This document shows positions 28,386-40,807 of a stretch of 64,000 nucleotides of DNA, in pieces; position 1 is the first letter of the stretch, and every line of letters begins with the position of its first letter. The notes under the pieces are model-generated. The model was given only the letters and a program-made list of their open reading frames with translations. It ran no database searches and was not told the origin of the DNA. A program made the translations under genes and the position numbers. This DNA comes from Mariprofundus ferrinatatus (GTDB taxonomy: Bacteria > Pseudomonadota > Zetaproteobacteria > Mariprofundales > Mariprofundaceae), in contig NZ_CP018800.1 of NCBI RefSeq assembly GCF_002795825.1, positions 372,001 to 436,000 on the forward strand, written 5' to 3'.

Positions 28386-28532
28386 ATCCGGCTTTATCCA
28401 GAGCAGTGGAGGGTTACAGGCCCTGAGAAACTGCGGCAACCGGCCAAAGATGATCGCAAGAGAATCCGAGGAGAATGGTGCCAATGCCTGCCCGAAGTAA
28501 TTTATTACCGAGGGAGCGATGATGGCGGGTTG
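28386..28532 (+). promoter_or_regulatory. SAM-I (S-box) riboswitch
   Basis: The aptamer core matches the S-box consensus: TTTATCCAGAG, then GTGGAGGG ... GGCCC, GAAACTGCGGCAACC, and the later GGTGCCAATGCCTGC, closing with GATGATGG that can pair back to the 5' strand (P1, with two mismatches). This RNA binds S-adenosylmethionine and normally stops expression when SAM is plentiful. A terminator hairpin follows at 28568. The class is much commoner in Firmicutes than in proteobacteria. Its presence marks the downstream gene as part of methionine/SAM metabolism. Confidence 0.88.
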
Positions 28533-28567: not shown

Positions 28568-28597
28568 AACCTTCGCAATTATCGCGGAGGTTTTTTT
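28568..28597 (+). terminator. Riboswitch expression-platform terminator
   Basis: A 9-bp stem (AACCTTCGC pairing with GCGGAGGTT, one G-U) with a 7-base loop is followed by a run of T residues, 38 bases before the thrC-like start codon. It is the expected off-switch controlled by the SAM aptamer just upstream. Confidence 0.85.
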
Positions 28598-28634
28598 GTT
28601 TCTGGATATGGCCGAAAAAACGGAGTATCTATCA

Positions 28635-29885
28635 ATGAGTGAAAGTATCGTTCGTGCGCTGAAGTGTCGTGAATGTGGCCAGGAATATCCGATTGAGCCG
28701 ACGCATGTATGTGAGTTCTGCTTCGGGCCGCTGGAAGTGGCCTACGACTACCACAAGCTGGAGGGTAAATTCACCCGCGAGCTGATCGAGTCGCGTCCGC
28801 AGACCATGTGGCGTTATAAAGAGCTGCTGCCGATCGATGGCGAGCCAACCGTGGGTGCCCAGAACGGCTTCACCCCGCTGGTACGCGCCAGAAACCTTGA
28901 GAAGGCTCTTGGCGTCAAGGAGCTCTATATCAAGAACGATTCCGTCTGTTATCCGACCCTCTCCTTCAAGGACCGCGTAGTATCCGTGGCGCTCTCCAAG
29001 GCGGTCGAGTTCGGCTTCAAAACCGTGGCATGTGCCTCTACCGGCAATCTGGCCGGATCAGTTGCTGCCAATGCTGCGGCGGCAGGTTTGGAGTCTTATG
29101 TCTTTATCCCTCACGATCTCGAGCAGGGCAAGGTGCTCGGTGCGGGCATTTTCGGCACCAATATCATTGGCATCAAAGGCAAGTACGACGATGTAAACCG
29201 TCTCTGCTCCGAAGTGGCCGGCAAATACGGCTGGGCCTTCGTAAATGTGAATGTGCGCCCCTTCTATGCCGAAGGCTCCAAGTCGCTCGCCTATGAAATG
29301 ATGGAGCAGCTGGGCTGGAAGGCGCCGAAGCATGTGGTTGTGCCGATGGCGTCAGGATCCCTCTGCACCAAGGTGGACAAGGCGATCAAGGAGTTCATCA
29401 AGCTCGGCCTGATCGAAGATAACGGTACTGCTGTTTACGGCGCGCAGGCGACCGGCTGTTCGCCGATTGCCAAGTCTGTCAAGGATGGCACCGACATGAT
29501 TCATCCTGTGCATGCAGATACCATCGCCAAGTCTCTGGCAATCGGTAACCCTGCCGACGGTTATTATGCCAACCGCGTGATCAATGAGTCCGGTGGCTGG
29601 GCAGAGGACATCTCCGATGAGGAGGTGATCGCTGCCATGAAGCTGCTGGCCGAGACCGAGGGTATTTTTGCTGAGACCGCAGGCGGCGTGACATTGGGTT
29701 GCGCCAAGAAGATGATTGAGTCCGGCAAGTTGCCACGTGACGAGTCGATTGTACTCTGCATTACCGGAAACGGCCTGAAGACTCAGGAAGCGGTGGTGGA
29801 TGCAATTACCAAACCGCGTATTATCAATGCCAGTCTGAAAGAGTTCGACGTTCTGGCCGATGCAGACGGCGTTGCCGGCGCATAA
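28635..29885 (+). CDS. Threonine-synthase-like PLP enzyme, candidate homocysteine synthase
   Basis: A 416-residue fold-type II PLP enzyme of the threonine synthase family with an N-terminal zinc ribbon ([22 protein letters not shown]). The PLP Lys is in [11 protein letters not shown], with the phosphate-cup block [18 protein letters not shown]. On homology alone it is threonine synthase (O-phosphohomoserine to threonine). The SAM riboswitch and the adjacent sulfur-carrier, NIL, cysK and moeB genes suggest instead that it uses O-phosphohomoserine plus carrier-bound sulfur to make homocysteine. I recall a ThrC-like enzyme (MetM) of this sort described in Streptomyces. I chose ATG 28635 because CGGAG lies upstream and earlier starts fall in or next to the terminator. 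Confidence 0.8.
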
Positions 29886-29920: not shown

Positions 29921-30199
29921 ATGAGTGTAACCGTACGTATTCCAACCCCGCTGCGTAAGCTGACCGGCGGAGCCGATGAAGTATCCGTGGATGGTGCAAA
30001 TGTTGGCGATGTCATTGAAAACCTTGAAGCGGCACATCCGGGCCTGAAAGAGCGTCTCTGCGACGATGCCGGCGAAATCCGTCGTTTCGTGAACGTCTAC
30101 GTGAACGACGAAGATGTTCGCTTTCTTGATGGCCGCGGTACCGCGCTGAAAGATGGAGATGAGGTCTCTATCGTTCCTGCGATTGCTGGCGGCTGCTGA
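29921..30199 (+). CDS. MoaD/ThiS/CysO-like sulfur carrier protein ending in GGC
   Basis: A 92-residue beta-grasp protein. It begins [15 protein letters not shown] and carries [13 protein letters not shown] and [12 protein letters not shown], as in CysO and MoaD. The C-terminus is Gly-Gly-Cys. In this family the diglycine is adenylylated by a MoeB-like enzyme and turned into a thiocarboxylate sulfur donor, so the extra Cys would have to be removed first. No JAMM-type protease (Mec/HcyD) is encoded in the window. The gene has a strong ribosome site (AGGAGAG) and overlaps the next by one base (TGATG). The moeB-like gene downstream is the likely partner. Confidence 0.88.
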
Positions 30200-30620: not shown

Positions 30621-31553
30621 ATGGCAATTTATAACAATGCTGCAGAAGCGATCGGTAATACCCCGCTGGTTCGTCTGAACCGGATCGGTGCGGATTGTGG
30701 TGCTGAAATCGTCGCCAAGCTGGAGTTTTTCAATCCGCTGAATTCGGTAAAAGACCGGATCGGCAAGGCGATGATCGAGGCGGCCGAGGCCGATGGGCGA
30801 CTGAAACCGGGCGGTTTGATTGTCGAGCCGACCAGTGGTAATACCGGTATTGCACTCGCCTTCGTGGCTCGCGCCAAGGGTTATCGCTGTATTCTCACGA
30901 TGCCGGAGTCAATGAGCCTGGAGCGCCGCAAGCTGCTGAAGCTGCTTGGTGCAGAGCTGGTGCTCACGCCTGCCGAGAAGGGCATGAAGGGTGCGATTGC
31001 CAGGGCTGAGGAGATCACCCACAGCACTGAGGGTGCATTCATGCCGCAGCAGTTTGAGAACCCGGCCAATCCCGAAGTTCACCGCCAAACAACGGCTCAG
31101 GAGATCTGGTCTGATTGTGACGGGAAGGTTGATGCGATCGTTGCAGGGGTAGGCACCGGCGGCACGATCACAGGTGTTGCTGAGGTACTCAAGCAGCGTA
31201 ATCCTGCATTCAAGGCGTTTGCTGTTGAGCCTGCCGATTCTCCGGTCATCTCAGGTGAGGCTCCCGGCCCGCACAAGATTCAGGGTATCGGTGCGGGGTT
31301 TATTCCGAAGAACCTGAACGTGGATATTCTCGACGGCGTTGAAAAGGTCACCAACGACGAAGCCTTCGAAATGGCACGCCGCCTCTCCAATGAGGAGGGG
31401 ATTCCGGGAGGTATCTCATCGGGTGCCGCCGTGACTGCGGCGGTTCGCGTGGCAAGTCGTCCTGAGATGAAGGGTAAGCGCATCGTCGTGATCATCCCTT
31501 CGATGGCAGAGCGCTATATGTCCACCGACCTTTTTAAAGGAATCGAAGTTTAA
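30621..31553 (+). CDS. cysK: Cysteine synthase (O-acetylserine sulfhydrylase)
   Basis: A 310-residue PLP enzyme. The Schiff-base Lys is in [14 protein letters not shown], with substrate loop [15 protein letters not shown] and phosphate loop [11 protein letters not shown]. The length and the SAMSL-type ending fit CysK. It makes cysteine from O-acetylserine and sulfide. About 180 bases separate it from the NIL gene, so a second promoter is possible. Because a sulfur carrier and MoeB flank it, use of protein thiocarboxylate rather than free sulfide (as CysM does with CysO in mycobacteria) is an alternative, but its motifs are those of ordinary CysK. Confidence 0.93.
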
Positions 31554-31599
31554 TTATTGATAACCGCGGTTGTTGCAGCGGAAGATTTTGGAGAAACAC

Positions 31600-32424
31600 G
31601 TGATCGATTTTACAGAGAAACAGATCGAGCGCTATTCGCGCCACATTATTTTGCCGGAGGTCGGCGCCGAGGGTCAGAGCAAGTTGCTCGAATCCAAGGT
31701 GTTCATGATCGGTGCCGGTGGTCTGGGCTCACCTGTCGCCTACTATCTGGCAGCAGCCGGCGTTGGAACTATCGGCATTGCCGATGCCGACGTGGTGGAC
31801 TCATCCAACCTGCAGCGCCAGATTATTCATAACGAAGATCGTGTCGGCATGCCGAAGGTGGAGAGTGCGCGCGAAACGATGCAGGCGCTCAATCCGGATG
31901 TGAAGGTCAATACCTACAACTACTTTGTCACCGAGGACAATATCCGTGAAATTATCCGCGACTACGATCTGGTCATCGACGGTTGTGATAATTTCCCGAC
32001 CCGTTTCCTGGTCAATGACGCGTGCTTCTTTGAGAAGAAGACACTGATCTCCGGCGCCATGTTCCGCTTTGACGGCCAGGTGGCGACTTTCAAACCGACC
32101 AGCCAGAAAGATGCACCGTGCTACCGCTGTCTCTACCCTGAGCCGCCACCAGCAGGCCTTGTGCCCTCCTGTTCCGAGGCGGGCATTCTGGGGGCGCTGG
32201 CCGGAGCGGTCGGTACCATCCAGGCGGTTGAAGCGGTTAAGGAGCTGCTTGGAATCGGCGATTCTCTGGCAGGTAAACTGATGACCTTCGATGCGCTCCG
32301 GATGGAGTGGAAGAAGCTGAAGCTGCGTAAGGATCCGGCTTGCCCGCTCTGCAGTGAGAATCCGAGCATTACCGAGCTGGTGACCTATGAGCAGTCCTGT
32401 GCGCTGCAGATGGGACATAGCTGA
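31600..32424 (+). CDS. moeB: MoeB/ThiF-family sulfur-carrier adenylyltransferase
   Basis: A 274-residue E1-like enzyme. It has RYSRHIILPEVG, nucleotide loop IGAGGLGSPVAYYLAAAG, DADVVDSSNLQRQI, CDNFPTRF, zinc cysteine pairs (CYRCLYP and CPLC near the end) and the conserved Cys region GLVPSCSEAGILG. It activates the C-terminal glycine of MoaD/ThiS-like proteins as acyl-adenylate. There is no rhodanese domain, so sulfide must come from elsewhere, probably the sulfite reductase encoded next. I start it at GTG 31600, six bases after GGAG, instead of an upstream TTG. The likely partner is the carrier encoded at 29921. Confidence 0.9.
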   Translation: MIDFTEKQIERYSRHIILPEVGAEGQSKLLESKVFMIGAGGLGSPVAYYLAAAGVGTIGIADADVVDSSNLQRQIIHNEDRVGMPKVESARETMQALNPDVKVNTYNYFVTEDNIREIIRDYDLVIDGCDNFPTRFLVNDACFFEKKTLISGAMFRFDGQVATFKPTSQKDAPCYRCLYPEPPPAGLVPSCSEAGILGALAGAVGTIQAVEAVKELLGIGDSLAGKLMTFDALRMEWKKLKLRKDPACPLCSENPSITELVTYEQSCALQMGHS

Positions 32425-32604: not shown

Positions 32605-34950
32605 ATGGCAACAGAATTTGATTTTGCACGCACCAGCGATGTCGATGAGTTCGACGCAGGTTATCGCGCCTTTAAAGAGGGGCGCATGTCCGAGGAGCGC
32701 TTCACGCCATTCCGTCTGCAGATGGGCGTATATGGTCAGCGGCAGGAGGGTGTGCAGATGGTGCGCGCCAAGCTGCCGGGTGGCTGTGTCACCCCTGATC
32801 AGATGGACGTCATCGCAGAGTGTGTTGAGCTTTATGCCGGGCGCCTGCCTACCGACGGAACCGTCACCGAGCCGCCTGAGAAGGTGGCGCATGTAACCAC
32901 GCGCCAGGACATTCAGGCTAATTTCGTGTCGCTTGATGATGTGCCGGCATTTCTTCGCAAGCTTGATGCCGCAGGCCTTACCACACGCGAAGCGTGCGGC
33001 AATACCGTTCGTAATGTTACCACCTGCTTCCTGGCGGGACGTTGTCCTGCAGAGCATGCCGATGTCACCATCCATGCGCGCAAGTTTGCCGAATTCTTCC
33101 TGCGCCATCCGCTCGGGCAGCAGTTTCCGCGCAAGTTCAAGGTGACCTTCTCCGGATGCGCCACCGATTGCGGCCTCTCGGGCATGCACGATATCGGTTT
33201 TATCGCTACCCATAAAGATGGCAAGCCCGGCTTTCAGGTATGGGCTGCCGGTGGCCTCTCATCGCAGCCGATGGGTGCGCTGCTGCTGGAAGAGTTTATC
33301 GAAGAGTCTGAGTTGTTCGTGGTTGGTGAAGCCTTGATGCGCATCCACTTCAAATACTCCGATCGCAAACGTCGTGCCCGCGCCCGTATGAAGTATGTGG
33401 CACAGAAGCTCGGGGCAGAGGGCTTTATCGAAGAGTATAAAAAGCAGCGTGCTATTATCGAGAAAACCCATGCCGATGATTCCGGTTACAGTGAAGCAAA
33501 CTGGCGCTCACCTTCGGCGGCACTTCCGTTTTCTGATTCCGGCGTCGTGGATCAGCACAATGGCAAGAAAGCGATTCTGCTTAACCTTTTCCGCGGTGAC
33601 CTGACGCCTGAACAGTGCCGGGCCGTAGCCAGTGCTGCCCGTGCAGCCGGCACCGATGAGCTGCGTGTTACCACCGAGCAGGGAATGGTAATCTGCGATG
33701 TCGATGGCGATAAAGTTGATGCGGCATTGGCGGTTCTTACCGGTGCAGGGCTCTCCAGCGAGTATGCCCGCGGCATATCCGATGTTGTTGCCTGCCCGGG
33801 CACGGAAACCTGTCGCCTGGGTATTACTTCGAGCCGGGGGCTTGCCGCAGCGCTGCAGCCTCTGATGAGTGACCTGAAAAAAGACGGCACACTGGCCGGC
33901 ATCACCGTGAAAGCATCCGGTTGCCAGCACTCCTGCGGTCGCCACCACATTGCCGATCTCGGGTTTCACGGCATGGCCAAGAAGGTGGCCGGTCAGGCTG
34001 TGCCGCACTATCAGCTGCATGTCGGTGGAAGCGGCGTTGCCGGATCACCCCTGGCATTTGCCACCGACCCCGTGCCGGCAAAACATGCTCCGGAAGCGGG
34101 CATTGCCGTGCTTAATGCTTACAAGACTGGCCGAACGGGTGATGAGTCGATGCATGACTGGGCATCACGAATCGGTAAAGAGGGTATTTCAGCAATCCTG
34201 GCACCGTTTGCCGCAGATGCCGGTGAGGTGGAGGGGCTGATCTACGACTGGAGCGAAAACGAGGCGTTCAATACCAAGGGCAACAAGAAGGGCGAGTGCG
34301 CTGGTGCGGTTCTCTCGATGTCTGACGCCCTGATCTCTGAGGCCGAGTACGAACTGTTGATTGCGCGTGCCCATGCCGATGCGATGTTCTGGGGAGAGGC
34401 GCTGACGGCGCTGCGGCGTTCGGCCATCTCGGCTGCGCGCGCTTATCTGGTTCCTTACGGTGAGGCGCCTGAGGATGATGCAGAGGTGTTTGGGTTACTG
34501 GCCCAGCATGCAGTTGTCGATGTCGAGGTGATCGGCGGTTTCCATGCCGTGCAGAATGCACTGATGAGTATCGACCTTGCTGATCCGGGTGCCGGAGTAA
34601 CAAAGTTGAAAGAGGTTCAGGGCGCATGGGTGAAGCTGGCAGCCAAACGCTTTGCTGCAGTGCCGCAAGAGCGTGTTGAAGATGCTGCGGAAGTAGCTGC
34701 CACTGGGCCCTCAGAAGATGTGGTGTTGCTCGACCTTTCCGGCGTTGCCTGTCCGATGAATTTTGTGAAAACAAAGATCAAGCTCTCTATGATGGCTGAA
34801 GGTTCACAGCTTGATGTCATCCTTGATGACGGGGCGCCGATTGAGAATGTTCCGCTTTCACTTGAGGAGCAGGGGCAGAAGGTGCTCGCCAAAGAGAAGA
34901 TCTCCGACAGCCAGTGGAAAATCCGCGTCGAGAAGAGCGGACAGATCTGA
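32605..34950 (+). CDS. Sulfite reductase (siroheme/4Fe-4S) fused to a TusA domain
   Basis: A 781-residue protein. Residues 1-300 and 325-560 are the two homologous halves of a sulfite/nitrite reductase. The second half has the full CX5C...CX3C set (ACPGTETC; GCQHSC), where the last Cys ligates siroheme. The first half also has CX5C (TCFLAGRC) and CX3C (GCATDC), which is unusual for a monomeric assimilatory enzyme. A helical region follows, and the last 75 residues are a TusA-like domain with its Cys in SGVACPMNFVK. The protein should reduce sulfite to sulfide and may pass sulfur to its own TusA domain. ATG 32605 is preferred over an upstream TTG. Flanking genes are moeB and the radical SAM-permease fusion. 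Confidence 0.9.
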   Translation: MATEFDFARTSDVDEFDAGYRAFKEGRMSEERFTPFRLQMGVYGQRQEGVQMVRAKLPGGCVTPDQMDVIAECVELYAGRLPTDGTVTEPPEKVAHVTTRQDIQANFVSLDDVPAFLRKLDAAGLTTREACGNTVRNVTTCFLAGRCPAEHADVTIHARKFAEFFLRHPLGQQFPRKFKVTFSGCATDCGLSGMHDIGFIATHKDGKPGFQVWAAGGLSSQPMGALLLEEFIEESELFVVGEALMRIHFKYSDRKRRARARMKYVAQKLGAEGFIEEYKKQRAIIEKTHADDSGYSEANWRSPSAALPFSDSGVVDQHNGKKAILLNLFRGDLTPEQCRAVASAARAAGTDELRVTTEQGMVICDVDGDKVDAALAVLTGAGLSSEYARGISDVVACPGTETCRLGITSSRGLAAALQPLMSDLKKDGTLAGITVKASGCQHSCGRHHIADLGFHGMAKKVAGQAVPHYQLHVGGSGVAGSPLAFATDPVPAKHAPEAGIAVLNAYKTGRTGDESMHDWASRIGKEGISAILAPFAADAGEVEGLIYDWSENEAFNTKGNKKGECAGAVLSMSDALISEAEYELLIARAHADAMFWGEALTALRRSAISAARAYLVPYGEAPEDDAEVFGLLAQHAVVDVEVIGGFHAVQNALMSIDLADPGAGVTKLKEVQGAWVKLAAKRFAAVPQERVEDAAEVAATGPSEDVVLLDLSGVACPMNFVKTKIKLSMMAEGSQLDVILDDGAPIENVPLSLEEQGQKVLAKEKISDSQWKIRVEKSGQI

Positions 34951-34979: not shown

Positions 34980-37601
34980 ATGAATCCATTCGAGAACCCG
35001 GGCCGCTGTAAGCTGGCACTGGTGAACCATGGTGTGGCATTGCCGGAAGGTCTTTCCAATGCGTCGCACTGGGTTGCACAGGCCAACGCGACCGAATCGA
35101 TTGTGGATATCAGATTACCCAGTGGCCATTTTGCCACCGTACCGGTAGGGCAGCCCTATACCCAGAAGAGTCCTATCCAGTTGATTCAGGAGGGTGACGA
35201 AGGTTCGGCTAGTCTGCAGTGGGGCGATGAGTCGCTGGAGGTGCAGCTGCTTCCGGCGCCAGCATACTACCGCAACAAAACCCGTTCCGGTGCTCGTATG
35301 GGTAGCTTCTCATCTCTGCACGAGAACCTGCTGATGCTCAACCCTCTGATGGGATGCGGTTTCTTTGCCGAGAAGGGCGAGGCGTGTCACTACTGTCAGT
35401 ACGATTCGATGCTTAATGAGAAAGAGCCGCCGCTGCGCGATCCGCTCGAGCTGGTGGAGGTGGTTCGGGCTGCACTCGCGGAGCGCGAAATTGATACCAT
35501 CTACCTCTACAACGGATTTGCGCCGGGTGATGATGCGGGACTGAATCGCCTCGTGCCGGTGATAGCGCTGCTCAGACGTCATGTCGGCCATCGCCAGATA
35601 GCCATTGAAACCGTTGCCCCGAGAGATACCCGAGTGATTGATGCACTCTATTCTGCCGGTCTCGATGTCTTTGTCTGCAACCTCGAGCTGCACGATAGGG
35701 ATCGATTTGCCGAAATATGCCCCGGCAAAGAGCATGCGGGCGGTCAGGCTGCTATCTGGAAGGCGCTGGATCATGCCCGTCAGGTGTTCCGTTCTGGTGC
35801 CGTGGTAAGTAACCTGATTGTCGGGCTGGAGGAGCTCGAATCGAGCAAGAGAGGTATTGATGCCCTGATTGCCCACGGCGTTGTGCCGCTGTTGCAGCCT
35901 TTCCGGCCACTGCCTGGCACACCGCTGGAGAAGCATGCACTGCCGACACTGGAAGGGTTGGAAGAGCTCTTTCTCTACCTCTACGCTGCGCTGGAAAGTG
36001 CAGCCTTTCCAACCCATCGCCTGCGTCATATGGGGCGTGTTCTGACACCGATGGAGAGTCGGGTTCTCGATGGCGGGGAACCTGCGCTGGCTGAACGATG
36101 GGTGGTCTCATCGATTGGCCGACGCTGGGACAGCTGGATTGATGGTTTAAGGCGACACCTTCGGGCCGGCAATGGTGAAGAGGGAGGAGCACTGGACCGC
36201 CGACCGATTCACCTGCTACTGGCGGGCGAGGTGCTGCCTTTTGCGGCATTGATGGCGATTGCTGTTCTGGCCGTTGCAGCCGGAACCATGCATGCGCCGG
36301 ATGGACTGAGTGAGAGTGGCTGGGTTTCATTGATTGTGTTTTCGCTCTGCCTAGTGTTGTGGGTAACGCAGCTACTACCACTTGCTGCGACCTCGATATT
36401 GGGGCTGGCGCTATTGCCTCTGCTTGGCGTAATGCCCGCGAACGAGGTCTTTGCGCTGTTCGGCAACCCTGCCGTATTCTTTATTCTCGGGGCTTTCATG
36501 CTTGCCGCAGGTGCGATGAAGAGCGGTCTCTCCGAACGACTCGCGCTGCTTACGATTGACAAGGTGGGCACCAGTCCACGCAGGCTACTGCTTGCGATGC
36601 TGCTGCTGCCGGCCTTGATGGCCTGTGTGATGCCCGAACATGCGGTGGCGGCACTTTTTCTCCCCATTGCATGGGAGATTGTACGCAGCCTCGGACTGAA
36701 AGCTGGAAACCGATATGCTCAGTCCATCTTCTTTGCACTGGCGTGGGGGGCAGTGACGGGCGGCGTAGTGACGCTGCTTGGCGGTGCGCGAGGCCCTCTG
36801 GCAATGGCGTTGAGCGAAGAGCTGACTGGAAGCAGTTTCTCATTTCTAGACTGGACGCTTGCAGCCGCCCCGATTGCACTCTCAGTATTGGCTGTGGCGG
36901 CAGTGGTTCTGTGCCGGATCACGCCGATGGGCGGACTTGATATCTCATCTGCACGCGAGCGCATCTCACTGCGCAGACTTGAGCTCGGTGATCTGAATCT
37001 GAAGTCAAAGGCGATGGCGCTGCTTCTGGTAGCAACTGTCGCCGGATGGGTTGTGGCAGGCCATGCCAGCGGCCTGGCCGGCATCGCGCTGATCAGTGTG
37101 GTCTGCATGTTTGCACTTCGGCTGGTGAGCTGGCGGTCAGTGGAGCAGCACGTGAACTGGGGTGTAGTGCTGATGTATGGCGGTGCTATTGCGATCGGCA
37201 AGGCGTTGACCGTGACGGGTGCCGGTGTATGGCTCGCTTATGCCATCTTTCCGGATAGCCTGACAGGGTTAGCCATGCTGGCACTGCTTGCCCTGATTAC
37301 GCTTCTCTTTACTGAAGGTGTGAGCAACGCTGCCGCGGTTGCGATCGTGCTTCCGGTAGCCATACCGATCGCGGCAGCAGCAGGTGTCGATCCGGTTACG
37401 GTGGCACTGACGGTGGGTATTGTATCCGGGTTTGCCTTTATGCTGCCGATGGGCACACCGCCGAATGCCATGATTTTTGGGACTGGCTTTGTGCGCGCAT
37501 CACACATGCTTCGCTACGGCGCACTTCTCTCACTTGCTTCGTTTGTACTATTTTTGATGACAGTGTCGATATTGTGGCCGGCACTCGGAAGGATTGGGTA
37601 A
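34980..37601 (+). CDS. Radical SAM domain fused to SLC13/DASS-family permease
   Basis: An 873-residue protein with two unrelated parts in one uninterrupted frame. Residues 1-415 include a radical SAM domain with an expanded motif (CX9CX2C in MGCGFFAEKGEACHYCQYD), a beta-barrel-type continuation (ETVAPRDTRVIDAL, VSNLIVGLEELESS) and PLLQPFRPLPGTPL. From about residue 420 it becomes an integral membrane protein of some 11 segments with both SLC13 hallmarks, SNAAAVAIVLPVAIP and LPMGTPPNAMIFG. The permease family moves sulfate, dicarboxylates or related anions with Na+. Its place between sulfite reductase and APS reductase suggests sulfate or sulfur-anion transport. I chose ATG 34980 (after GGAAA) over an overlapping GTG at 34914. 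Confidence 0.88.
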   Translation: MNPFENPGRCKLALVNHGVALPEGLSNASHWVAQANATESIVDIRLPSGHFATVPVGQPYTQKSPIQLIQEGDEGSASLQWGDESLEVQLLPAPAYYRNKTRSGARMGSFSSLHENLLMLNPLMGCGFFAEKGEACHYCQYDSMLNEKEPPLRDPLELVEVVRAALAEREIDTIYLYNGFAPGDDAGLNRLVPVIALLRRHVGHRQIAIETVAPRDTRVIDALYSAGLDVFVCNLELHDRDRFAEICPGKEHAGGQAAIWKALDHARQVFRSGAVVSNLIVGLEELESSKRGIDALIAHGVVPLLQPFRPLPGTPLEKHALPTLEGLEELFLYLYAALESAAFPTHRLRHMGRVLTPMESRVLDGGEPALAERWVVSSIGRRWDSWIDGLRRHLRAGNGEEGGALDRRPIHLLLAGEVLPFAALMAIAVLAVAAGTMHAPDGLSESGWVSLIVFSLCLVLWVTQLLPLAATSILGLALLPLLGVMPANEVFALFGNPAVFFILGAFMLAAGAMKSGLSERLALLTIDKVGTSPRRLLLAMLLLPALMACVMPEHAVAALFLPIAWEIVRSLGLKAGNRYAQSIFFALAWGAVTGGVVTLLGGARGPLAMALSEELTGSSFSFLDWTLAAAPIALSVLAVAAVVLCRITPMGGLDISSARERISLRRLELGDLNLKSKAMALLLVATVAGWVVAGHASGLAGIALISVVCMFALRLVSWRSVEQHVNWGVVLMYGGAIAIGKALTVTGAGVWLAYAIFPDSLTGLAMLALLALITLLFTEGVSNAAAVAIVLPVAIPIAAAAGVDPVTVALTVGIVSGFAFMLPMGTPPNAMIFGTGFVRASHMLRYGALLSLASFVLFLMTVSILWPALGRIG

Positions 37602-37605
37602 CTAT

Positions 37606-38328
37606 ATGAATGCTTTGGTTGAACCGGCTGTAAGCCTCCTTAAGCAGGCCAAACAGGTCCATGGCGATGCACTGGTCTATCCATGCTCTATGGGACTTGA
37701 AGGGTCGGTGCTGGTGGACATGATCAGTAAACATGGCTTGAACATTCCTGTCATGACACTCGATACCGGCAGGCTGCCGCAGGCGACCTATGATGTGATC
37801 ACTGCTTTCGAAGCGCGTTACGGCATCCGCATTCAGGTGCTGTTCCCTGACTGCCATGAAGTTGAAGCGATGGTGCGTGAATATGGCGTGAATTTATTCA
37901 GGAAATCCGTAGAGTTGCGCAAGCAGTGCTGTGAAGTACGCAAGGTGCGGCCGCTGATGCGTGCACTTGAGGGCAAAGAGGCGTGGGTTACCGGCAGGCG
38001 CAGGCAGCAATCGAAAGGACGCGCTGATCTGCAGTCTGTTGAAACTGATTCTGTATATGGACTGAAAAAGTATAATCCACTACTGGAGTGGAGCCTTGAT
38101 GATGTATGGAGCTATGTGAAAGAGAATGATGTTCCCTACAACAGGCTTCATGATGCCCACTACCAATCCATCGGTTGCGAATGTTGCACGCGAGCGATTA
38201 CCGTGGGTGAAGATGAGCGCGCCGGCCGCTGGTGGTGGGAAAATGATGAGGTTGCGGCAGAGTGCGGTCTGCATGTGATGAGCATCAAACAGGTTGTTGG
38301 CGAAATTGAAGATGGTGAAGGGATTTAG
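37606..38328 (+). CDS. cysH: Adenylyl-sulfate (APS) reductase, CysH family
   Basis: A 240-residue reductase. The P-loop-like PCSMGLEGSVLVDM, TLDTGRLPQATYD, and the two cysteine sets that bind [4Fe-4S] in APS-type enzymes are present: KQCCEVRKVRPL and GCECCTRAI. The cluster shows that APS rather than PAPS is the substrate, consistent with no APS kinase in the window. The second motif reads CECC where most homologues have C-X-P-C. It converts APS to sulfite and AMP, feeding the sulfite reductase upstream. It starts four bases after the permease fusion stop and precedes cysD by nine bases. Confidence 0.92.
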   Translation: MNALVEPAVSLLKQAKQVHGDALVYPCSMGLEGSVLVDMISKHGLNIPVMTLDTGRLPQATYDVITAFEARYGIRIQVLFPDCHEVEAMVREYGVNLFRKSVELRKQCCEVRKVRPLMRALEGKEAWVTGRRRQQSKGRADLQSVETDSVYGLKKYNPLLEWSLDDVWSYVKENDVPYNRLHDAHYQSIGCECCTRAITVGEDERAGRWWWENDEVAAECGLHVMSIKQVVGEIEDGEGI

Positions 38329-38337
38329 GAGAACGAA

Positions 38338-39258
38338 ATGTCTGGAAAGGTATCAGAACATAAGCTGACACAGCTTAAAGCGCTGGAAGCGGAATCGATC
38401 CACATTATCCGTGAGGTGGTGGCAGAATTCCGCAATCCGGTGATGCTCTACTCGGTCGGCAAGGATTCGAGTGTGTTGCTGCATCTGGCGCGCAAGGCAT
38501 TCTATCCTGCGCCGCTTCCGTTTCCGCTTTTGCATGTCGATACCGGCTTCAAGTTCAAGGAGATGTACGAATTCCGCGATAACTACTGTAAAGAGGTTGG
38601 CGCGGACCTGATCGTACGCCGCAATGAAGAGGCGATCGCTAGGGGTATGAATCCAAAGGATCACGGCGTGGCCCGCTGCTGTGGCGCATTGAAGACGCAG
38701 GGTCTTCTTGAAGCCCTGGAAGAGGGTGAATATGACGCTGCTTTCGGCGGTGCACGCCGCGATGAGGAGCGTTCACGCGCAAAGGAGCGCGTATTCTCGA
38801 TGCGCGACGAATTCGGACAGTGGGATCCGAAGAACCAGCGCCCTGAATTGTGGAATATCTACAACGGCCGTATTCACGAAGGTGAGTCGGTTCGCGTCTT
38901 TCCGATCTCCAACTGGACCGAGATGGATGTCTGGCTCTATATCCGTGAGGAGAAGATTCCGATTGTGCCGCTCTACTTTGCCAAAGAGCGCCTGATGGTT
39001 GAGCGCAAAGAGATGCTGATCCCCTATTACGAAGAGATGAAGGATCAACTGCTTGAGGGTGAAGAGCCGAAGCTGGTGATGAGCCGCTTCCGTACGCTGG
39101 GATGTTCCCCGTGTACAGGTGCAGTGCGCTCGGATGCATCGAATATGGACGAGATTGTGATCGAGGCAGCAGCAGCCCGGCGCTCGGAGCGTGAGACGCG
39201 CATTATCGATCACGGATCCAACAGCATGGAAGATAAAAAGAAAGAGGGTTACTTCTGA
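38338..39258 (+). CDS. cysD: Sulfate adenylyltransferase subunit 2 (ATP sulfurylase small subunit)
   Basis: A 306-residue ATP-pyrophosphatase-type protein with the PP-loop [50 protein letters not shown], and the C-terminal [13 protein letters not shown] and [12 protein letters not shown]. It transfers AMP from ATP to sulfate to give APS, driven by the GTPase partner CysN encoded just downstream. APS then goes to the APS reductase. Length and all motifs are normal. The 110-base gap before cysN contains two hairpins. Confidence 0.97.
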
Positions 39259-39368: not shown

Positions 39369-40655
39369 ATGACTGAACTGAATATTAAGATGACCAAGGA
39401 GATCGAGCTGCTCCGGCTGGTGACAGTAGGCAGTGTGGACGATGGCAAATCGACACTGATCGGCCGCCTGCTGGTCGATACCAAAGGCGCATTCGAGGAC
39501 CAGTTGCTGGCCGTGCGCAAGAAAAAGGGACAGGAGCAGCATATCGCTTCTGCGTCCGAGATTGATCTGGCGATGCTGACCGACGGCCTTTCTGCCGAAC
39601 GGGAGCAGGGCATTACCATTGATGTTGCATACCGTTATTTTGCCACGCCGAAACGCAAGTTTATCATGGCCGATTGTCCGGGGCATGAGCAGTACACCCG
39701 TAATATGGTGACCGGTGCTTCCACTGCCAGTGCTGCGATCATTCTGATCGATGCGCGAAATGGCGTGATGCCGCAGACCAAACGCCACACCCATATTCTC
39801 GGTCTGCTCGGGATTCCCCACCTGATTGTTGCAGTCAATAAAATGGATCTGGTCGGTTTTGATCAGGCGACTTTCGAGAAAATCCGGGAAGATATGAGTG
39901 CCTATTGTGCCAAGCAGGGGATCAAGGACCTGATCTGCCTGCCGATGTCTGCGCTCGATGGCGATATGGTGGCCGTGCGCGGTGACAATATGGGGTGGTA
40001 TGAGGGTGAGACGCTGCTTGAGACACTGGAAAATCTTTCCGTGCTTGATGCGGTGGACCAGAAACCATTCCGGTTCCCTGTGCAGCTTGTAAACCGTCCC
40101 CAGACCGCCGATCTACCCGACTATCGTGGTTTCATGGGTACAATCGTATCCGGCACCGTTCGCGTGGGCGACGAGGTCGTTGCTGTGCCCAGTGGCAACA
40201 CCTCGACCGTTAAAGAGATCGTGACATTCGACGGCAATCTTGAAGAGGCATTTGCGCCGCAGAGTGTGACACTGACACTGAACGATGAGATCGACGTGTC
40301 TCGCGGTGATATGCTCACCCATGTGGGTGAGAAGGCGAAGGACTCGAAAGAGCTGCGCGCCAACGTCTGCTGGATCGGTAATGAGCCGCTGAGTGAACGT
40401 AAGAAGTACCTGCTCAAGCACAATACCAATACCGTCAAGGCGATGGTGACGCAGATCGATTTCAAAACCGACATCCATACACTGGAGCATGAAGAGGATG
40501 CTGCCGAACTGGCCATGAACGAGATCGGCCGAATTTCCTTCAAGCTCTTGAAGCCTTTACATTACGACACCTATGCGGAAAACCGCGCCACCGGCAGCTT
40601 CATTCTGATCGACACCTTTACCAACAACACCGTCGGTGCAGGTATGATCGTTTAG
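39369..40655 (+). CDS. cysN: Sulfate adenylyltransferase subunit 1 (GTPase CysN)
   Basis: A 428-residue translation-factor-like GTPase with G1 GSVDDGKSTLIGRLL, switch region REQGITIDVAYRYF, G3 DCPGHEQYTRN and G4 NKMDL, followed by the beta-barrel domains. It couples GTP hydrolysis to sulfate adenylation by CysD. It lacks the CysC (APS kinase) domain that is often fused to its C-terminus, in keeping with direct APS reduction here. It is the last gene of the sulfur cluster; a strong terminator follows. Confidence 0.97.
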   Translation: MTELNIKMTKEIELLRLVTVGSVDDGKSTLIGRLLVDTKGAFEDQLLAVRKKKGQEQHIASASEIDLAMLTDGLSAEREQGITIDVAYRYFATPKRKFIMADCPGHEQYTRNMVTGASTASAAIILIDARNGVMPQTKRHTHILGLLGIPHLIVAVNKMDLVGFDQATFEKIREDMSAYCAKQGIKDLICLPMSALDGDMVAVRGDNMGWYEGETLLETLENLSVLDAVDQKPFRFPVQLVNRPQTADLPDYRGFMGTIVSGTVRVGDEVVAVPSGNTSTVKEIVTFDGNLEEAFAPQSVTLTLNDEIDVSRGDMLTHVGEKAKDSKELRANVCWIGNEPLSERKKYLLKHNTNTVKAMVTQIDFKTDIHTLEHEEDAAELAMNEIGRISFKLLKPLHYDTYAENRATGSFILIDTFTNNTVGAGMIV

Positions 40656-40683
40656 AAACGGTCCGGATTGCAGATAAAGATAA

Positions 40684-40709
40684 AAAGAGGGGGCATATGC
40701 CCCCTCTTT
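40684..40709. terminator. Rho-independent terminator of the sulfate operon
   Basis: AAAGAGGGGGC-atat-GCCCCCTCTTT forms a perfect 11-bp stem with a tetraloop, followed by CTATTTG, 28 bases after the cysN stop. The palindrome is symmetric and could work in both directions. Confidence 0.85.
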
Positions 40710-40807
40710 CTATTTGCGACAGAGAAACAGGCATTGACCCTGTCGTGTAGTGTCACAGAATGGCCGGCCCGCTGGCGAGGATCGCAACGGGTTAGCAGGA
40801 GAGGTTC

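Follow-up and report, generated by a model that had tools for sequence, protein, structure and literature searches.

A single open frame in the genome of Mariprofundus ferrinatatus (34980-37601, plus strand, ATG to stop, in the window, i.e. the whole 64,000-nucleotide stretch of DNA that was analysed) encodes an 873-aa protein in which a radical-SAM (rSAM) enzyme (residues ~1-400) is joined to a permease of the DASS/SLC13 type (~410-873). The uninterrupted frame of the original prediction is thereby borne out, both halves scoring above their profile cut-offs. The rSAM-DASS fusion is real, class-wide in the Zetaproteobacteria and, as far as could be found, undescribed; no earlier report of it was found in the open-access literature, and to our knowledge no other radical-SAM enzyme resides in one polypeptide with a secondary transporter. 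The gene belongs to a sulfate-assimilation operon headed by a SAM riboswitch, its cluster motif is conserved, and the folds of both halves are supported by structure prediction. We see roughly an even chance that the protein combines an importer of sulfate, or a similar oxyanion, with a catalytically competent radical-SAM enzyme that works in Cys/Met/SAM metabolism.

The start codon at 34980 is backed by aligned homologues that begin near the same residue, and the M. ferrinatatus genome was assembled as one 2.30 Mb contig. Among 67 Zetaproteobacteria records, the joint is open in 58, including single-contig and isolate genomes, the halves are two separate neighbouring genes in seven, and a contig end cuts the locus in two. 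An assembly join, which the original prediction had wished to see excluded, is thus ruled out by open joints in independent records; nor do the homologues always occur as two genes, the finding that had been named as fatal to the fusion. In L066, which counts among the 58, a stop codon interrupts the frame at residue 39. Several of the seven split pairs lie so close together that the upstream stop overlaps the downstream start or almost adjoins it; in one (L049:1188-1462), ~275 bases of unrelated sequence separate the two genes, whereas the other pairs abut. All seven cluster as one group in the trees, so a single change of state is enough to account for them; in these poorly rooted trees, whose outgroup branches are saturated (~10 changes per column for the rSAM half), either the fusion or the split may have come first. 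Since seven species carry the halves as separate genes, covalent linkage is non-essential, which weakens the earlier proposal that uptake is coupled to the radical reaction.

Profile searching with the rSAM half detected the gene in 74 of the 78 class genomes, including every one of the 39 that are of high quality. A search of relatives recovered the fused protein, 60-84% identical, from over 30 genomes belonging to its own genus, family and order; it spans three families of the order and is present in the named isolates Mariprofundus ferrooxydans PV-1, M. micogutta, M. erugo and strain EBB-1. Two conserved peptides, compared with 84,980 species genomes, matched Zetaproteobacteria and two records labelled ‘proteobacterium’, which fall inside the Zetaproteobacteria group in the tree. 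No fused copy was found outside the class in a broader set of genomes from the phylum or, for other phyla, in this peptide scan, a single search with two Zeta-type peptides that reaches close relatives only and may miss distant rSAM relatives. In this broader set, NF045502 matches occur in 16 other genomes, each time as a free-standing gene of 360-436 aa; for the 15 whose surroundings were read, the adjacent genes mostly include those of Nit1C nitrilase clusters. Relatives of the permease outside the class are free-standing too. A divergent NF045502-like rSAM gene (L162:7539-8621; 121 bits, just under the cut-off) adjoins a squalene-cyclase-like gene and has no nitrilase cluster beside it.

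Features of the sulfate-assimilation operon and of the fusion gene (positions in the window; res., residues of the fused protein)
Feature	Position	Strand	Basis
SAM (S-box) riboswitch aptamer RF00162, operon head	28391..28525	+	59.5 bits vs gathering 44.4
Terminator-like stem after riboswitch	28568-28592		
PLP-dependent enzyme, threonine-synthase-like (thrC), zinc ribbon	28596..29885	+	PF00291
ThiS/MoaD-like sulfur carrier	29921..30199	+	PF02597; synteny
Cysteine synthase CysK/CysM	30621..31553	+	domain profile; synteny
MoeB/ThiF-like activating enzyme	31594..32424	+	PF00899; synteny
Sulfite/nitrite-reductase-type enzyme fused to TusA (SiR-TusA)	32605..34950	+	profile matches
Radical-SAM half of fusion, res. 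1-404	34980..36191	+	profile matches, alignments, AF2 model
Variable linker between halves, about res. 394-410	36160..36209	+	alignment across joint; low pLDDT in full-length model
DASS permease half of fusion, res. 405-873 (PEH 552-554, GGARG 601-605, SNA 782-784, GTPPN 825-829)	36192..37601	+	profile matches, alignments, full-length model
APS/PAPS reductase CysH	37609..38328	+	profile matches
Sulfate adenylyltransferase subunit CysD	38338..39258	+	domain profile; synteny
Sulfate adenylyltransferase subunit CysN (GTPase)	39369..40655	+	domain profile
Terminator-like stem downstream of CysN	40680-40713		

Profile matches and class-wide synteny confirm the place assigned to the gene, between SiR-TusA upstream and APS reductase downstream in a sulfate-assimilation operon. 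No strong sense-strand terminator lies between 28600 and 40680, scanner matches in this interval being at chance level, and all eight relatives tested likewise have a SAM riboswitch upstream of the fusion gene, at a distance of 6-7 kb. In the 19 neighbourhoods of the class that were examined, the order ThiS/MoaD-like carrier, cysK, moeB, SiR-TusA, rSAM-DASS, (cysH), cysD, cysN holds as far as the contigs reach; cysH is missing between the fusion and cysD in some Mariprofundus genomes (L037, L038). Two loci of other genera (L036:5800-6530, genus g9; L042:5527-5742, g8) have a free-standing TusA-like gene between cysH and cysD, which in L036 lies beside a DsrE-like gene. The same sulfur gene set recurs in L051, from another family of the phylum, where a DASS-type permease gene without rSAM follows ATP sulfurylase in the company of SiR-TusA and CysH; this permease is 39% identical to the DASS half and favours the sulfate reading of the fusion, and directly 3' of its gene lies a lipoate-protein-ligase-like gene (L051:9669-10718).

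The rSAM half matches PF04055 (Radical_SAM; residues 135-285, 35.1 bits vs cut-off 29.5) and NF045502 (variant_rSAM; residues 42-331, 174.4 bits vs cut-off 125). Its cluster motif, C126-X9-C136-X2-C139, is invariant in alignments of 16 and 30 sequences, and the only other invariant cysteines are C233 and C247, which are likely to act as active-site thiols. The CX9CX2C spacing had seemed odd; however, it is a family trait, since NitD-type rSAM proteins have the identical spacing, and a motif unique to the fusion is thus ruled out. Searches of PDB sequences with the rSAM half gave no useful match, but its AF2 model (pLDDT 87, pTM 0.88) matches the structures of HydE, biotin synthase (BioB) and lipoyl synthase (LipA). 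Judged by profiles and model, this half forms a branch of its own in the NF045502 ‘variant rSAM’ clade and has a fold of the BioB/LipA/HydE kind; its sequence suggests that it is catalytically competent.

The permease half matches the DASS model TIGR00785 over residues 439-866 (240.4 bits vs subfamily cut-off 198.6), and the full-length model (pLDDT 86, pTM 0.77) matches SLC13/DASS structures including VcINDY and human NaS1 with sulfate. Both hallmarks that had been reported, SNAA and MPMGTPPN, are indeed present; to speak of both hallmarks was nevertheless an overstatement. Only the second hairpin (SNA) and the second, TPPN loop are kept, whereas the first SNT motif reads PEH and the first SPPN loop GGARG, both of them retained across the class: the domain is a variant instead of a canonical SNT-type permease, and the two SNT hairpins of VcINDY-type co-transporters are replaced by PEH in the first and SNA in the second. 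With the first SNT motif changed to PEH and the first SPPN loop to GARG, one Na+ site of the permease looks lost or rebuilt, and substrate and coupling may differ from those of known DASS proteins. In other Pseudomonadota, (G/P)EH-GGAR permeases sit beside Usp-like (stress-protein) genes and not beside sulfate genes, so that the motif by itself is no sign of sulfate. Among these, the genes of a GEH/GGAR branch of DASS proteins have a Usp-like gene immediately beside them in several Pseudomonadota families (L193-L198). Seven K/R lie in the segment preceding the first membrane helix of the fusion, as against none in the loop that follows; by the positive-inside rule, this places the enzyme half in the cytosol.

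How sulfate enters these cells bears directly on the role of the permease. No sulfate ABC permease scored over the cut-off in a profile search of 42 genomes; together with the class-wide synteny and the SAM riboswitch, this supports the link to sulfate uptake drawn in the original prediction, and from its operon context the DASS half likely imports sulfate or a similar oxyanion. SulP-family transporters, however, are encoded in all 42 genomes; these proteins may carry sulfate or bicarbonate, and SulP could be the actual sulfate importer. The protein could contribute to sulfur assimilation in the following manner: The C-terminal DASS permease would bring sulfate, or a closely related oxyanion, into the cytosol for activation, reduction and incorporation into cysteine by the other enzymes of the operon. 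The [4Fe-4S] cluster on C126/C136/C139 would cleave SAM to yield a 5'-deoxyadenosyl radical, whose target may be a small molecule from the Cys/Met/SAM pathways. The fusion would hold both halves at the membrane, in equal amounts and under control of the SAM riboswitch. We infer that sulfate is the substrate, that the enzyme is active and that the halves are physically coupled. The ubiquitous SulP proteins, the loss of the Na1-type motifs, the seven split pairs and the occurrence of (G/P)EH-GGAR permeases near Usp-like genes all speak against this reading. A bolder one, which is possible but doubtful, is a new kind of transporter-enzyme, a radical-SAM enzyme built into an anion permease with a rebuilt cation site (E553/H554/R604 for Na1), that acts on or gates sulfur entry, class-wide in the iron-oxidising Zetaproteobacteria.

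Instead of catalysing a reaction, the rSAM half might serve as a regulator, its [4Fe-4S] cluster and SAM site sensing iron-sulfur and SAM status to throttle sulfate import. Control of the operon by a SAM riboswitch and the co-occurrence of both halves throughout the class would fit such a role, as would the covalent linkage, which is typical of regulatory domains of transporters (STAS, TrkA-C). Yet, conservation of the rSAM half equals that of the permease (mean column identity 73% vs 70% in the alignments), its cluster motif is intact, the existence of split pairs suggests that the enzyme is soluble, and no radical-SAM domain acting purely as a sensor is known to us; regulation is therefore an unlikely function. 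That both halves of the fusion are exposed to one cytosolic pool, that the substrate site of the permease is a variant one (PEH, GGAR) and that the related folds HydE, LipA and BioB act on sulfur compounds could also be accommodated by import of an organosulfur anion, a sulfonate or thio-acid, whose C-S bond the rSAM enzyme would cleave, supplying the operon with sulfite or sulfide. The hosts, however, are mostly Fe(II)-oxidising autotrophs, the operon encodes CysDN and APS reductase, which are unneeded for sulfonates, and no sulfonate genes were seen beside the fusion gene, so that we regard this route as quite improbable.

The position of the fusion gene directly 3' of SiR-TusA raises another scenario, in which a LipA/BioB/LipS-like enzyme would thiolate a cofactor with sulfide from its neighbour. 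The rSAM fold matches BioB, LipA and HydE, and the sister family NitD matches the profiles of LipS2, LipA and BioB. LipA, however, uses a CX4CX5C auxiliary cluster (PMC9585515), a motif that is absent from the aligned rSAM half, which has just two extra invariant cysteines. Moreover, LipA (41 of 42 genomes) and BioB (30 of 32) are already encoded elsewhere; a replacement of either enzyme is ruled out by their presence in nearly all genomes, and sulfur insertion in general appears improbable. The fusion may finally be one of convenience: two operon genes that became one when a stop codon was lost, with no coupling of function other than co-expression. The variable linker and the seven species with separate neighbouring genes, some overlapping and all in one tree group, are in line with such an origin, but the joint persists in 58 of 67 records, at identities as low as ~60% and across three families of the order, which makes it hard to credit. 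The reading as an oxyanion importer tied to an active radical-SAM enzyme thus has a larger share of our confidence than any of these four. The near-universal presence of the gene in an iron-oxidising class with cultured isolates points to a hitherto overlooked radical step connected with sulfate assimilation, and the permease represents a DASS branch with an apparently rebuilt first sodium site.

Among known systems, the nearest relatives of the rSAM half are the NitD/MSMEG_0568 proteins (TIGR04043; about 23-25% identity), NitD being named simply as a SAM-superfamily member in a cyanide-linked cluster (PMC11049912). Both proteins score above the NF045502 cut-off, share the CX9CX2C, PGK and PF.P..GTPL motifs and align with an hhalign probability of 99.4 (23% identity over ~326 columns, including the N-terminal beta region). 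Membership of the fusion in NitD/MSMEG_0568 is nonetheless ruled out by score, the rSAM half reaching 94.3 bits vs the TIGR04043 equivalog cut-off of 303.7, and by context: NitD is free-standing in Nit1C nitrilase clusters, whereas the fusion is joined to a permease in a sulfate-assimilation operon. The C-terminal CxxCxxC of NitD (C348, C351 and C354, invariant in the aligned NitD sequences) is absent from the fusion alignment, and NitD has other residues at the positions of C233 and C247. The closest solved folds are those of BioB, LipA, HydE and LipS, at <20% identity. The permease half shares with VcINDY and NaS1 the fold, TIGR00785 membership, the second SN(A) hairpin and the TPPN loop, and differs from both by the added N-terminal enzyme domain. 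In VcINDY, two SNT hairpins bind the substrate and form the Na+ sites (PMC9098524, PMC7553777), of which Na1 (PMC9098524) is not conserved in the fusion permease (PEH, GARG). In the exchanger LaINDY, an Arg-Glu pair at the Na1 position stands in for Na+ (PMC7553777); the fusion likewise has charged residues there, the invariant E553 and R604, if the positions are equivalent as presumed, and by analogy E553, H554 and R604 could play a LaINDY-like part as Na+ substitutes. At the second hairpin the two diverge: the fusion keeps SNA, in contrast to the LaINDY-type His at Na2.
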